NCBI RefSeq assembly: GCF_017353455.1
Contig: NZ_JAFMPZ010000093.1
Location: forward strand, 1 to 51,663
Direction of reading: 5' to 3'
DNA: 51,663 nt
From: Streptomyces laculatispora
GTDB lineage: Bacteria; Actinomycetota; Actinomycetes; Streptomycetales; Streptomycetaceae
Shown: one piece after another, positions 10,932-20,498 of the stretch
Layout: the number at the start of each line of letters is the position of its first letter
Numbering within the stretch: the first letter of the stretch is position 1
Position numbers and translations under genes: made by a program
The notes under the pieces: generated by a model
Told to the model about the DNA's origin: nothing
The model's database searches: none
The model's input: only the letters and a program-made list of their open reading frames with translations

Positions 10932-11894
10932 TCACACGAGGGAGAGGCCGGACAGCAGCCCCAACAGGGCGGCGTCCAGGTCCCGGCACGGCTCCCAACC
11001 GAGCAGCCTCCGGGCCCGGGAGATGTCCAGCTTCTGGCAGTCGACGCCGTCCGCGCCGCCAACGGCCGGCCGCTCCACCAGGCGGACCGGTAGCCCGCTC
11101 AGCGCGAGCAGCCGCTCGACCACCTCGCCGGCCCGGACGGCGCGTCCGCTGCCGACGTTGATGACGCGGCCGCAGACCTCGGCCCGGGTCGCGCCGGCCG
11201 CCGCGACCACGGCGTCGACGACGTCGCGCAGGTCGACGAAGTCCCGCTCCGCCCGCAGCGGTGGACAGACCAGCTCGGCATCGATGGCACCGGGGTTCTC
11301 GGCGTAGCGCTCCAGGTGCGCGGCGACGTCGCCGAGGAGGCTGCCGGCGGGGACTCCGGGGCCGACGATGTTGGCCATGCGCAGGACGACCCCGTCGAGT
11401 GCGCCGGAGTCCGCCGCGTCGAGGACACTGCGCGACGCGGCCAGCTTCGAGCGTCCGTAGGGCGTGACGGGGGCCTCCACGCCGTTCTCGGCGAGGCCGC
11501 TGTCGCGGGTGCCCGCGCCGTACTCGTGCACGCTGCCCAGCTGGAGCAGCCAGGGCCGGTGGGGCATCTCGCGCAGTGCGGCGATCAAGGTGGTCACCAA
11601 CTCGGCGTTGGCGGCCATCATCTGTTTTTCCGTCACTTTCCACACGGCGCCCGCGGCGTTGACCACGATGTCGGGGTCGGCGCCGGTGAGGAGGGAGCGC
11701 AGCTCCTGGTGGCTCGCGGTCAGCAGGTCGAGTGCGACGAAGTGTTCGTCCGCGTCGGTGCCGGCCAACCTGCCTGGCAACGTCCGTGAGACGCACACCA
11801 CGTGGTCCCCTTTCGCCCGGAACGCGGCCCGCAGGTGCCTGCCGAGGAATCCCGTGCCGCCGAGCACCACCACGCGCCGCCGCTTCCCGGTCAC
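10932..11894 (-). CDS. NDP-hexose 4-ketoreductase (SDR, UrdZ3/LanZ3-like)
   Basis: A 320-aa extended short-chain dehydrogenase. The NAD(P)-binding site GGTGFLGRHL is at the N terminus, the catalytic YGRSK lies near residue 150 after LQLGSVHEYG, and the C-terminal half is of the NDP-sugar epimerase/reductase type. In angucycline clusters such enzymes reduce the 4-keto group of an L-configured 2,3,6-trideoxysugar, the last step to L-rhodinose. The GTG start at 11894 overlaps the stop of the upstream nucleotidylyltransferase paralogue by four bases (GTGA), so the two are translationally coupled. A larger upstream frame overlaps that gene and is not credible. Confidence 0.82.
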   Translation of the reverse strand: MTGKRRRVVVLGGTGFLGRHLRAAFRAKGDHVVCVSRTLPGRLAGTDADEHFVALDLLTASHQELRSLLTGADPDIVVNAAGAVWKVTEKQMMAANAELVTTLIAALREMPHRPWLLQLGSVHEYGAGTRDSGLAENGVEAPVTPYGRSKLAASRSVLDAADSGALDGVVLRMANIVGPGVPAGSLLGDVAAHLERYAENPGAIDAELVCPPLRAERDFVDLRDVVDAVVAAAGATRAEVCGRVINVGSGRAVRAGEVVERLLALSGLPVRLVERPAVGGADGVDCQKLDISRARRLLGWEPCRDLDAALLGLLSGLSLV

Positions 11895-12962: not shown

Positions 12963-14162
12963 TCAGGCCGGGTGCCGGACCAGCCGCTCCAGATCCGCGA
13001 CGACCCGGGACGGCGCGGGCATCGCGGCCATTTCCCGGCCGAGCGATGAGGCGGCCTTCGTGTACCGGGGTTCGGCGAGGAGTTCGGCCAGGGCGGCGCT
13101 GATCCGAGCGGGGTCGTCCTGCTCGGCGGCAGTTTCCAGGGCGAGGCCGGCTCCGGTGCGGACGAGCTGCTCGGCACAGGCGAACATGTCGGCCAGCTGC
13201 GGCAGGGCGAGCTGCGGGAGCCCCGCGTAGCTGGCAGACATCGTGGTCCCCGCTCCCCCGTGGTGGACGACCACGTCGGCGGTGCGGAACAGCATGTGCA
13301 ACGGCGCGGGGTCGACCAGCCGTACCCCGGCCGGCAGGGCGCCCAGCTCCGTACGGTATTCCGCCTCGACCGTCGCGACTGCCTCCACTCCGGGCAGATC
13401 GGCGAACGCCCGCAGGATGCCGCGGACGAGGGGCACTCCGTTGAGTGCGAGAGTGCTGCGCCCGAGGGAGACGATCACGCGCCGGGGCCAATGGGGCCGG
13501 GGCTCGGACGCCTCGGCCGCCCACTCGTTCCGTATCCAGTCGGGCAGCGTGCCGTTGCCGTGCGCGTGGACATGCCGGATCGGCATTCCTATGGCCACGC
13601 CGGGAAGTTGGAGGCTGGGCGGGCACGGATCGAGTACGGCGACCGGGTCGGGCAGACCGGGCAGGCCCTGCGCCGCGCAGAGGTCCGCGTGGGCCTCGCG
13701 GGCCTGGATCCGGGTGGGCTCCGACAGCGGGTCGACGCCCCAGCGGTGCTGCACGACCGGGACGCCGAGGGCACCGCCGACGATCAGTGCGCTGAATTCG
13801 AGGATGTCGCCGACCAGCAGGTCCGGGCCGAAGGCACGGGCCAGCTCCAGATACCCGGGCAGGACTGTCCTGTTGTGGTCGGCCCAGGAGCGGGCAAAGT
13901 CGGCGGCCTGCGCCAGGTCCGGGAAGCGCCCCCAGGACTGGAGCAGCCGCTGCCCGGCAGGGAGTCGGCCGAGCAGCATCTGGTCCATGCGGAAGGGCTC
14001 ACCGACGGTTGCGGCGTGCAGGCCCGCGGCACGGGCTGTGGGCACGATGTCTGGCTGTCCCGCCACCAGCACCTCGTGCCCCGCGTCGCGGAGTGCCCAG
14101 GCCAGCGGCGTCAGCGGAGAGAGATGGCCGGCGACGGGCGTGATGACGAAGAGGACGCGCAT
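12963..14162 (-). CDS. GT-B glycosyltransferase
   Basis: A 399-aa family 1 deoxysugar transferase with MRVLFVITPVAGHLSPL at the N terminus, QHRWGVDPLS and LDPCPPSLQLPG in the linker region, and HHGGAGTTMSASYAGLPQL in the donor domain. It is a close paralogue of the transferase at 17243-18415; both share the RWGVDPLS and NGVPL motifs, so they probably handle related sugars or acceptors. Of tandem ATG codons at 14165 and 14162 the second has the better spacing from gaagga. It precedes the degenerate nucleotidylyltransferase and follows the 3,5-epimerase. Confidence 0.9.
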   Translation of the reverse strand: MRVLFVITPVAGHLSPLTPLAWALRDAGHEVLVAGQPDIVPTARAAGLHAATVGEPFRMDQMLLGRLPAGQRLLQSWGRFPDLAQAADFARSWADHNRTVLPGYLELARAFGPDLLVGDILEFSALIVGGALGVPVVQHRWGVDPLSEPTRIQAREAHADLCAAQGLPGLPDPVAVLDPCPPSLQLPGVAIGMPIRHVHAHGNGTLPDWIRNEWAAEASEPRPHWPRRVIVSLGRSTLALNGVPLVRGILRAFADLPGVEAVATVEAEYRTELGALPAGVRLVDPAPLHMLFRTADVVVHHGGAGTTMSASYAGLPQLALPQLADMFACAEQLVRTGAGLALETAAEQDDPARISAALAELLAEPRYTKAASSLGREMAAMPAPSRVVADLERLVRHPA

Positions 14163-17242: not shown

Positions 17243-18415
17243 TCAGCCGGCCGCGACCAGCTCCTCCAGGTCCGCCACCACCCGGGACGGTGCGGGCATC
17301 GCGGCGATCTCCTCGCGCAGTTCCCCCGCCGCCTTCGCGTAGGACGGCTCGTCGAGCAGCGCGGCCACGGCCTCGCGCACCGGCTCCGGCTCGTCCTGGC
17401 GCGCGGCCTCCTCGATGGCGATGCCCGCGCCCACCCGGGCGAGCGCGTCGCCGTGCCAGAACTGGTCCGCCAGCTGAGGCAGGACGAGCTGCGGCAGGCC
17501 GAAGACGCTCGCGGTCATCGCCGTACCCGAACCGCCGTGGTGGACGACGGCACCGCACGAGCCCAGGAGCAGGTGCAGCGGGACGGGATCGATGACCCGT
17601 ACGTTGCCGGGGACCTCGCCCAGGGCCTCTCGGTACTCCTCCTCCACGGTCGCGAACACTTCGGTGTCCGGCAGTGCGCCGAGCGCGTCCAGAATGTTTC
17701 TCATGAGGGGGACGCCGTTGTACGCGAGGGTGCGGCCGCCCAGTGAGACGGCGACGCGCCGGGCCGTGCCGCGCTCCCTGGCATCGCGCCGGAGCCACTC
17801 GGGCACCCGGCCGTTGCCGTTGAAGGGGACGTAGCGCATCGGGGTACCGGGAGTCGTGCCGGCCAGCTGAAGGCTGGGCGGGCACGGGTCGAGCAGGACC
17901 GCCGGGCGCGGCAGCCCTGTCAGGCCGCGCTCCGCGAGGATGCCCTCGAACCATGTCTCGGCGGCGCCGCGGACCTGGTCCGAGAGGGGATCGACGCCCC
18001 AGCGCTGCTGCACGACGGGGACGCCGAGTTCCTCCCCCACGATCGCCGAGATGAACTCGATCGGGTCGGAGAGGACCAGGTCGGGGCGGAAGTCGCGGGC
18101 CAGGTCCAGATAGGCCGGCAGCACGTCCAGGGTCTGGGGCATCCACAGGGAGCCGACGTTGGAGAGCTGCTCCAGGGCGGGCCTGCCCCAGGACTGGAGT
18201 GGCCGCTTGCCGCCGAGTCGCTCAACGAGCATGTCGTCCAGCTTGAGCCGGTCACCGATGCCCACGGCGTTCAGGCCGGCCGACGCGGCCGCGCCGAGAA
18301 CGTCCTCGCGGCCGACGAGCAGCACCTCGTGGCCTGCGGCGCGCAGCGCCCACGCCAGCGGGACCAGCGGGGTGAAGTGGGTCGAAACGGGGGTGTTGAT
18401 CATGAGGACGCGCAT
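17243..18415 (-). CDS. GT-B glycosyltransferase
   Basis: A 390-aa family 1 transferase starting MRVLMINTPVSTHFTPL, with QQRWGVDPLSDQ, LDPCPPSLQLAG and NGVPLMRNILDALG in the middle and HHGGSGTAMTASVFGLPQL in the donor site. It is most similar to the transferase at 12963-14162 within this window. It lies downstream of the cobalamin-binding-like gene, separated from it by a strong hairpin (18471-18505), and converges on the tetR gene with only 16 bases between stop codons. Donor sugar cannot be told from sequence. ATG 18415 has ggag upstream at good spacing. Confidence 0.9.
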   Translation of the reverse strand: MRVLMINTPVSTHFTPLVPLAWALRAAGHEVLLVGREDVLGAAASAGLNAVGIGDRLKLDDMLVERLGGKRPLQSWGRPALEQLSNVGSLWMPQTLDVLPAYLDLARDFRPDLVLSDPIEFISAIVGEELGVPVVQQRWGVDPLSDQVRGAAETWFEGILAERGLTGLPRPAVLLDPCPPSLQLAGTTPGTPMRYVPFNGNGRVPEWLRRDARERGTARRVAVSLGGRTLAYNGVPLMRNILDALGALPDTEVFATVEEEYREALGEVPGNVRVIDPVPLHLLLGSCGAVVHHGGSGTAMTASVFGLPQLVLPQLADQFWHGDALARVGAGIAIEEAARQDEPEPVREAVAALLDEPSYAKAAGELREEIAAMPAPSRVVADLEELVAAG

Positions 18416-18470
18416 CGTCGTCTCCTGCCGATCCTGCCGAGATGAAGTCGAGGGAATAGCCGGGAGCCGC

Positions 18471-18505
18471 CCCGGGCCGGGCACCGCTTCGGTGCCCGGC
18501 CCGGG
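18471..18505 (-). terminator. strong GC hairpin between two cluster genes
   Basis: Perfect 15-bp arms (18471-18485 and 18491-18505) around the loop gcttc, between the stop of the B12-fold gene (18518) and the start of the downstream transferase (18415). No T tract follows, as is common in Streptomyces. It may attenuate readthrough into the transferase or mark a transcript end. Confidence 0.65.
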
Positions 18506-18517
18506 AATCGGCTGGTG

Positions 18518-18934
18518 TCAGACGCCGGACGACTGACGGACGTGGTCGCGCACCCACTCCGCCGCGGCCCACGCCGGGGTGCCGGAGGAGAAGATCTCCG
18601 CGACGCCGCGCGCCTTGAGCCCCGTGACGTCGTTGGTCGGGATGATGCCGCCGCCGATGACGGTGACCTTCCCCGCGCCGCGCTCGGCGAGGAGGTCGAG
18701 GACGCCGCCGAACAGCGCCTCGTGATCGCCCAGCAGGCTGGAGATGCAGATGACCGCGGCGCCTTCGCGGACCACGGTGTCGACCAGGCCCACCGGGCTC
18801 TGGTCGTCGCCGGCCTGGATCACTTCGAGGCCCGCCCCGGTGAAGGCCTCAACAAGGGTCGGCGGTGCGGCCGCCCCCTTACCTCCCGCCTCGGGCTTGG
18901 CCATCACCACGCGGATCGGATCCGACTCACTCAT
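18518..18934 (-). CDS. cobalamin-binding-fold protein lacking the B12 histidine ligand
   Basis: A 138-aa stand-alone domain like the C-terminal B12-binding domain of methylmalonyl-CoA mutase. The Rossmann-like core is clear: IRVVMAKP at the start, CISSLLGDHEAL at 64-75 and VIGGGIIPTNDV at 92-103. The DxHxxG box that carries the lower axial His should follow AKP; here it reads EAGGKGA (15-21), without Asp or His. Normal base-off, His-on cobalamin binding is therefore unlikely. It sits between two glycosyltransferases in a deoxysugar block, where no mutase partner is present. Function unknown: a repurposed scaffold, or binding of another ligand. ATG 18934 has gggag upstream. Confidence 0.8.
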   Translation of the reverse strand: MSESDPIRVVMAKPEAGGKGAAAPPTLVEAFTGAGLEVIQAGDDQSPVGLVDTVVREGAAVICISSLLGDHEALFGGVLDLLAERGAGKVTVIGGGIIPTNDVTGLKARGVAEIFSSGTPAWAAAEWVRDHVRQSSGV

Positions 18935-19012: not shown

Positions 19013-20134
19013 TCAGACCAGCCGCTCCAGCGCTCCCACCACGTCGGCGGGAAGCGGCAGTGCCGCGATCTCTGCAGAGAGCTCCCGCGCCCGCTCGGCG
19101 TACGAGGGGTTCCCGATCAGCTCCCGGCACGCCTTCTCGACGGCCTCCGGGGTGTTCTCGTCGACGGTGACGGCCGCTCCGAAGTCGGAGATGCGCACGC
19201 CCGCCTCGACGAAGTTCCCGCCCTGCGGCACGATCAGCTGCGGGACACCGGCGTTCATCGCCGTCAGCGCGGTCACCCCGCCCGCGTGGTGTACGACGAC
19301 ATCGCAGGTCCGCACCACCACGTCGAGCGGGACCCACCCGGCCCGTACGCCGGGCAGTTCCGCCCTCAGTTCGTCCGCGACCTCGTCCAGCGTCGCGATG
19401 ACCACCTCCGTGTCGAGTGCGGCCATGTCGGCGGCCAGCCCCCGCAGGAACCCGGTCTTCTTCGCGAACACCAGCCGGCTGCCTGAGGTGACGAGCACGC
19501 GCGGCCGGTCTCCCTTGGTGTACATCCACGGCTCCAGCCGCCGCTGCCCGTTGGCCGGGACCCAGCGCATCATCTGCGCGGGCGGTGCGTCCGCGGGCCG
19601 CAGGCTCGGAGGGCAGATGTCGACGAAGAGATCCGGCTCGGGCAGCCGTTCAAGCCCCAGCGCCCTCAGTTCCGGCTGGAGTTCGTCGCTCGCGGCCGGG
19701 TCCGTGCGCCAGGCGTCACCCGTGTCCCAGGCCTGTCGTACGTAGGGAACGCCCCGCTCGGCGGCGATCAGCGCGGCAGCGAAGGACATCGAACCACCGA
19801 CCACCAGGTCGGGGCGCCAGTTCGCGGCGACCTCTCGCAGCGCGTCCATGCTGCCCGCAGCCATCCGCCCGAACCAGTGTCCGGCGAAGTCCAACTCCTC
19901 CTCCGGGGTCTCGGGCATGATGACCGGATTGCCTGCACGGTCCATGGTGGCGAATCGCCTGATCGAGGACGGCGCGATGGAAAGCGCCGGAATTCCTGCC
20001 GCCGCGATGTAAGGAACCATGTCCTCCACGGCGCCCATGAACACGTCGTGACCCGCATTGCGCGCCGCCGTGGCCAGCGGCGCGAGGGCGAACACCGTCG
20101 CTGGGCTGCCGCTCGCGACGAAGAGGATTCTCAC
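19013..20134 (-). CDS. UrdGT2/LanGT2-like glycosyltransferase (first sugar)
   Basis: A 373-aa transferase that opens with MRILFVASGSPATVFALAPL and contains DLFVDICPPSLRPADA, RRLEPWMYTKGDRPRVLVTS and HHAGGVTALTAMNAGVPQL, all hallmarks of the UrdGT2 group. Members attach the first D-olivose to the angucyclinone, as a C-glycoside at C-9 (UrdGT2) or an O-glycoside (LanGT2). The HHAGG form of the donor motif separates it from the other three transferases. C- versus O-linkage depends on a short loop that I cannot judge by eye. The start is GTG 20134 with aggag six bases upstream. Confidence 0.9.
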   Translation of the reverse strand: MRILFVASGSPATVFALAPLATAARNAGHDVFMGAVEDMVPYIAAAGIPALSIAPSSIRRFATMDRAGNPVIMPETPEEELDFAGHWFGRMAAGSMDALREVAANWRPDLVVGGSMSFAAALIAAERGVPYVRQAWDTGDAWRTDPAASDELQPELRALGLERLPEPDLFVDICPPSLRPADAPPAQMMRWVPANGQRRLEPWMYTKGDRPRVLVTSGSRLVFAKKTGFLRGLAADMAALDTEVVIATLDEVADELRAELPGVRAGWVPLDVVVRTCDVVVHHAGGVTALTAMNAGVPQLIVPQGGNFVEAGVRISDFGAAVTVDENTPEAVEKACRELIGNPSYAERARELSAEIAALPLPADVVGALERLV

Positions 20135-20177: not shown

Positions 20178-20498
20178 TCAGTCGATGATCAGAACCGTGT
20201 TTCCGTCTGGGTCCTTCACGAAGAACCGCCACATGTCGGAATGCTTTTCGATCTCCATGGCACCGGCGTCCCGCAGCTCTTCCCTGGCGGCACCGAGTTC
20301 CGCCCCGGTGAAGGCGATGGCCATCGTCTCGCCGCCGGTGTCACCGCCCAGGACCAGTTCGCCACCAGCACCGGTGTCCAGGACGATCCATCCCTCGCCT
20401 TCCTTCACCGTGCCCATTTTCAGGCGGTCCCGGTAAAAGGCTTTCATTTCCTCGAAGTTGTCACACTTGATCAGAACCGCAGAGAGCGACCCGAACAT
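20178..20498 (-). CDS. VOC/glyoxalase-fold protein
   Basis: A 106-aa single vicinal-oxygen-chelate domain: SAVLIKCDNFEEMKAFYRDRL in the first beta-alpha-beta unit and WRFFVKDPDGNTVLI at the end, the standard glyoxalase-like finish. Metal ligands are not clearly conserved (the first His/Gln position is Leu/Ile, and the final Glu is Ile-Asp), so it may bind rather than transform its ligand, like bleomycin-resistance type proteins, or act as a cyclase. It lies between the ketoreductase and the UrdGT2-like gene. Start ATG 20498 follows gggaggtg. Confidence 0.78.
   Translation of the reverse strand: MFGSLSAVLIKCDNFEEMKAFYRDRLKMGTVKEGEGWIVLDTGAGGELVLGGDTGGETMAIAFTGAELGAAREELRDAGAMEIEKHSDMWRFFVKDPDGNTVLIID

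Follow-up and report, generated by a model that had tools for sequence, protein, structure and literature searches.

A B12-binding-fold protein with a replaced cobalt-ligating loop, encoded beside LanGT2 in landomycin-type clusters: a possible auxiliary of olivosyl transfer

A contig of Streptomyces laculatispora carries, between two glycosyltransferase genes, a small gene (referred to as X hereafter) whose product has the fold of the cobalamin-carrying subunit of acyl-CoA mutases and lacks the axial histidine. What may such a protein do among glycosylation genes? We examined this question in the whole stretch of 51,663 nucleotides, which is called the window below. The gene itself is located as follows.

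18518..18934, minus strand: gene X; its 138-aa product has the B12-binding fold and is a relative of mutase small subunits (profiles, PDB match and model)

The reading frame of X is intact and shows a Streptomyces-like codon bias, with a third-position GC of 0.92. PF02310 matches the protein with 36.4 bits (cut-off 32.1) and TIGR00640 with 76.9 bits (cut-off 57.45). PF02310 is the sole domain and a Radical SAM domain is absent, so that X is not a cobalamin-dependent radical SAM enzyme. The closest solved relative is 4r3u_C, the small subunit of 2-hydroxyisobutyryl-CoA mutase (E 1.5e-16). An AlphaFold2 model, computed from an alignment of five sequences (the window X and the L010–L013 proteins), reached a pLDDT of 85.7 and a pTM of 0.83. 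It superposes on 4r3u_C with Z 19.7 and 1.9 Å over 130 residues, Foldseek reports the same fold at E 6e-12, and the top structural matches are B12 domains of mutases. The preliminary description, which had proposed a stand-alone B12-type fold without the axial histidine, was therefore correct in this respect, as it was in the coordinates, strand, length and motifs of X.

The cofactor face of X can be divided into one replaced segment and two motifs that were largely kept.

18875..18892, minus strand: codons 15–20 (EAGGKG), in place of the DxHxxG loop that ligates cobalt; all four orthologues read EAGG[KR]G
18728..18742, minus strand: codons 65–69 (SSLLG), a mostly conserved motif of the SxL type (TSLLG, with Thr at residue 65, in L011, the S. 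globisporus protein)
18635..18655, minus strand: codons 94–100 (GGGIIPT), GG-type motif; GGGIIP in four of four orthologues

The box that sits after strand 1 and should read DxHxxG, as in the small subunit of an AdoCbl mutase, reads EAGGKGA in X. In the MAFFT alignment, K19 of X faces the axial histidine and G17 faces the aspartate, the exact register depending on gap placement, and P24 is a one-residue insertion after the loop. The residue aligned with the axial histidine is Lys or Arg in all four X proteins. All 47 paralogue rows, 40 of them distinct, keep LDGHDRG, while DxHxxG is absent from every one of the four X proteins; the rows were drawn mainly from the top-scoring loci and are not a random sample. 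The fixed switches between X and the paralogues include G15E, L16A, D17G, D20G and the inserted P24; among the residues kept in X are K13, L67, G69, H71, GGGIIP, D102 and G118. Position by position, GGGIIP occurs in at least 39 of the 40 distinct paralogues, and the GGGIIPT block, among others, is invariant in the X proteins. The alignment excludes a mere misreading of the motif in the preliminary description, and chance or artefact is excluded by the four intact orthologues sharing EAGG[KR]G. The loss of standard His-on cobalamin ligation in X is thus well supported by the alignment. X has exchanged the histidine loop for another sequence that hardly varies among its orthologues, and has kept much of the cofactor face; this does not look like decay. 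Such a pattern points to an interaction at this face, with either a partner or a ligand; since much of the face is kept, ligand binding may well be retained in part.

On sequence grounds, the cluster that contains X is of the landomycin type, which sharpens the preliminary description of X beside deoxysugar transferases in an angucycline-type cluster. The neighbouring genes are listed below.

20178..20498, minus strand: VOC/glyoxalase-like gene, 106 aa, upstream of LanGT2 and conserved in the other three X clusters
19013..20134, minus strand: LanGT2 orthologue, directly upstream of X (PDB 4rie/4rif, E 6.3e-231)
17243..18415, minus strand: glycosyltransferase downstream of X, read as LanGT1 (comparison with the available part of PMC11766693)
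16648..17226, plus strand: TetR regulator, read as LanK (profile and the same part of PMC11766693)
14914..16458, minus strand: MFS exporter, read as LanJ (profile and the same part of PMC11766693)
12963..14225 (ORF limits), minus strand: third transferase, read as LanGT3 (comparison with the same part of PMC11766693)
9586..10839, minus strand: fourth transferase, read as LanGT4 (TIGR04516, 442.8 against a cut-off of 440)

Both transferases flanking X are EryCIII-like GT-B proteins. The upstream one agrees with the 4rie/4rif sequence at 349 of 373 positions (94%); the PDB molecule name of these entries is 'glycosyl transferase homolog', and UrdGT2 (2p6p) is the third distinct PDB match. We take 4rie/4rif to be LanGT2 of S. 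cyanogenus. The available part of PMC3391682 mentions LanGT2 and UrdGT2 together, which fits this assignment. The LanGT2 enzyme beside X is read as the one that adds the first sugar in landomycin-type clusters. The names LanGT1, LanGT3, LanGT4, LanJ and LanK are putative, drawn from comparison with the part of PMC11766693 that was available. According to that part, S. globisporus 1912 is a landomycin E producer whose cluster is without lanGT3, lanK and lanZ2. In the 20-kb stretch of S. globisporus 1912-4Crt (L011), the window TetR protein has no match, and the best that the transferase at 12963 and the nucleotidyltransferase at 11891 reach are matches of 55% and 48%, which lie where other cluster genes are. 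The lack of a LanGT3 orthologue there agrees with what that part of PMC11766693 says of the landomycin E cluster. In S. griseoluteus (L010), orthologues of all three proteins were found, with identities of 81–92%.

The mutual positions of LanGT2, X and LanGT1 were compared among the clusters. A spacer of 78 bp (window) or 99 bp (L010) separates LanGT2 from X. In L011 and in L058, the cluster of Streptomyces sp. RerS4, the start of X overlaps the stop of LanGT2 by 4 bp, and the LanGT2 frame is longer (391 and 394 aa, respectively). On the other side of X, the following element is predicted.

18465..18513, minus strand: strong RNA hairpin between X and LanGT1 (predicted, z −4.9)

Each of the four clusters has a predicted hairpin after X, with z-scores of −4.9, −5.3, −2.7 and −2.2; the shuffles that fold as well number 0, 0, 0 and 3 of 200, respectively. 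No T-run terminator was found after X. Based on the overlap with LanGT2 and the hairpin after X, X probably belongs with LanGT2 rather than with the transferase that follows. The hairpins of L010, L011 and L058 occupy the same place as that of the window and differ from it in sequence.

How widely X occurs was examined by several searches. An exact-peptide-seed scan of genome contigs (84,980 species) yielded four loci. Two of them are X, from S. griseoluteus (81%) and S. globisporus (67%); the others are distant relatives whose box is intact. A tblastn search of plasmids matched 251 records, one of which is X (Streptomyces sp. RerS4, 68%); this copy is annotated by NCBI as 'cobalamin-dependent protein'. 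The landomycin-type cluster with X in this strain (L058, NZ_CP097323.1 196436-236846) lies on a 242-kb linear plasmid. In a profile search of 392 Streptomyces genomes, of which 44 matched at E ≤ 1e-36, the window's own X was the sole X (273.8 bits; next best 133 bits). The corresponding search of the class covered 394 genomes, 11 of which matched at E ≤ 1e-37; X was found in the window's own genome and in G724, the next best match having 140 bits. The DNA pattern of the MAKPEAGG loop occurs in 10 of 394 genomes of the family, and the own genome, G724 and G924 encode X; at the other seven loci (L097–L103), tblastn gives no match to X. At the DNA level, the X genes of G724 and G924 do not differ from those of L011 and L058, and thus do not count as further cases. 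Four distinct X proteins were therefore obtained (window, L010, L011 and L058), all encoded between the same two transferases and directly after LanGT2. The suggestion of the preliminary description, to look for other clusters with this gene next to deoxysugar transferases, accordingly turned up three more.

The reverse relation was also examined. GT2-like matches (E ≤ 1e-70) were found in 42 of the 392 Streptomyces genomes, and 30 loci were inspected with flanks of about 1.5 kb (35 bases on one side in L072): X is adjacent in none of the 29 loci other than the window's own. Within the same flanks, no X is present near the UrdGT2-type relatives. In the genomes examined, X is confined to LanGT2-type clusters, where it lies directly downstream of LanGT2. 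In a near-complete genome labelled as the same species (G395), X was missing at E ≤ 1e-36, and so was a LanGT2-like gene at E ≤ 1e-70; the landomycin-type cluster may therefore be strain-specific.

As judged from the alignments, X is clearly homologous to the ordinary mutase small subunit of Streptomyces. Relatives of X at E ≤ 1e-12 occur in 329 of 395 genomes, the window's own included, and the aligned Streptomyces paralogues are about 45–50% identical to X. The window genome has nine PF02310 matches including X; among the other eight, L001, L003 and L004 were compared with X. L001, which we presume to be IcmB-type, is the genome's own intact small subunit, keeps LDGHDRG and lies on another contig. 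The aligned loop of L003 shows DGH, and the match to L004 leaves the loop out; both are outside the residue table because of its E-value limit and inside the tree. In this tree of 44 rows, the four X proteins form one clade (support 100/100) on a stem of 2.22 changes per site. Elsewhere in the tree, several branches are long and forks are weakly supported, so that it fixes neither the attachment point of X nor a duplication within Streptomyces. Acyl-CoA mutase small subunits (4r3u chain C and IcmB-type L001) resemble X in length, fold, and the SxL-type and GG motifs, while they keep DxHxxG where X has EAGG[KR]G with its one-residue insertion. X differs from them further in lying among glycosylation genes and in forming its own clade on a long stem.

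The six pairwise dN/dS values of X are 0.36–0.48, and those of eight other cluster genes are 0.11–0.33 (24 comparisons), so that X has the highest of the nine. X evolves faster than these eight genes, yet under purifying selection; a pseudogene is excluded by dN/dS below 0.5. The amino-acid differences among the X proteins number 1–3 in the 15 codons 10–24, a segment picked after the alignment was seen, and 25–48 in the other 123 codons.

Partners that would make X a conventional cobalamin protein were sought throughout the genome. MM_CoA_mutase matches at six places and Radical_SAM (PF04055) at 17 places, none of them on the window contig (C131); the large-subunit matches lie on other contigs. 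The preliminary statement that neither gene lies in the window is thus borne out, and a mutase or radical SAM partner there is excluded. None of the 21 P450 matches of the genome falls on C131 either, which excludes a P450-type activator on this contig. The family TIGR04516, 'activator-dependent family glycosyltransferase', has a cut-off of 440: LanGT4 (442.8) is just above it, and LanGT2 (174) and LanGT1 (267) are well under it. That LanGT4 would pass as activator-dependent with no P450 on C131 bears on an auxiliary function of X, and is suggestive only.

Putting these results together, we tentatively favour, at somewhat below an even chance, the reading that X is an exapted mutase small subunit which now assists LanGT2 in olivosyl transfer. 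X would descend from the small, cobalamin-carrying subunit of an isobutyryl/2-hydroxyisobutyryl-CoA-mutase-type enzyme, which would have been recruited into the landomycin cluster and then converted. It would no longer serve an AdoCbl mutase, and would act as a small auxiliary protein in LanGT2 olivosyl transfer, its remodelled face either binding the transferase or holding the acceptor or the sugar nucleotide for it. A precedent is EryCII, a P450-like protein that has lost its haem and activates EryCIII (PMC3391682, in its available part). Auxiliaries of the EryCII/DesVIII type share with X a cofactor-dependent fold altered at the cofactor site and a gene beside a deoxysugar transferase. They differ in that theirs is a P450 fold and that of X is a B12 fold by profile and model, and in that EryCII is reported to activate its transferase, which for X is a proposal.

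X would probably modulate yield, stability or selectivity and not be strictly necessary, given that no X-like chain is present in the LanGT2 crystal entries and no X lies near the UrdGT2-type relatives. The LanGT2 entries 4rie–4rii are not among the 13 PDB sequences matching X, so that LanGT2 needs no X to fold and crystallise. According to the available part of PMC11766693, the LanGT enzymes were assigned their functions from the expression of single genes and the feeding of knock-outs; the presence of X is unstated there, and this work weighs little for or against a helper. The adjacency of X and LanGT2 is by itself no proof of joint function. The 25 LanGT2-specific positions are scattered along the protein and outline no clear interface, and four distinct X sequences are too few for a coevolution analysis. 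A bolder form, in which X without His ligation is an obligate or selectivity-setting partner of LanGT2, and thus a second, independent stripped-cofactor activator of glycosyltransferases after the haem-less P450s, seems to us doubtful.

Two readings are the main rivals of the auxiliary one, and we consider each of them rather improbable. X may still bind cobalamin, base-off and without the histidine, with the loop Lys/Arg under the corrin and the cobalt four- or five-coordinate, for redox, methyl transfer or sensing. To our knowledge, no landomycin step needs B12, and the absence of radical SAM and mutase large-subunit genes from C131 likewise speaks against it. The kept SxL-type and GGGIIP motifs and the Lys/Arg at the axial-histidine position in all four X proteins would nevertheless suit such binding, and the retained face is equally compatible with continued binding of a ligand, cobalamin included. 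The available part of PMC13331322 describes a lower-face Arg in TsrM and QueG, an Asn-held water in OxsB, Trp in TokK and Leu in Mmp10; the Arg of TsrM, however, comes from the loop after strand 3, not from the His loop. In TsrM, OxsB and TokK, as in X, the B12 fold is of the Rossmann type and a residue other than His is placed at the lower face or close to it, but their domains belong to radical SAM enzymes whereas X stands alone. Alternatively, the glycine-rich EAGG[KR]G loop may bind another small ligand (nucleotide sugar, flavin or polyketide), which X would deliver or sense. The position after strand 1 binds phosphate in flavodoxin-like folds, and in X a basic residue and glycines are fixed just there, in a loop that stays near-invariant while much of the protein drifts; against this, the best structural matches are the B12 domains of mutases.

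The other two rivals are, in our judgement, very unlikely. One takes X for a decoy mutase subunit, which would pair with a large subunit without functional cobalamin and tune acyl-CoA flux during production. Its relation to the small subunit, the partly retained cofactor face and the large subunits encoded elsewhere in the genome would agree with this, but X is always next to LanGT2, evolves faster than the other cluster genes compared and has a very long stem branch. The other, a hitch-hiking remnant with no present function, would account for the highest dN/dS of the nine genes, and no phenotype of X is known; a remnant would be hard to reconcile with a gene that four diverged clusters keep intact, whose dN/dS stays below 0.5 and whose loop hardly varies.

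The preliminary description knew of no characterised role for such a protein, and the open-access literature searched gave the same answer: no stated role for an X-like protein was found among the papers listed, the primary landomycin papers being largely outside that scope. These papers appeared in subscription journals. In the same literature, 'lanX' occurs as a primer name only, 'lndX' and related names returned nothing on X among the papers listed, and no paper on IcmB came up. The available parts of the grecocycline, baikalomycin and S. cyanogenus papers do not mention an X-like protein. Because the cluster is of the landomycin type, X lies very probably within the already sequenced and published lan/lnd clusters, and may already be named there.

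The biosynthesis of the landomycin skeleton and its glycosylation has been termed well established (PMC11766693, in its available part), and yet the open-access literature searched assigns no role to X, a conserved gene that lies between two of the transferases involved. If X assists a transferase, the engineering of landomycin-type sugar chains has missed a component, and glycosyltransferase helpers would have arisen from the B12 fold as well as from the P450 fold; the automatic annotation 'cobalamin-dependent protein' would then mislead. If X instead binds cobalamin without the histidine, it would offer a minimal, stand-alone model of that binding mode.
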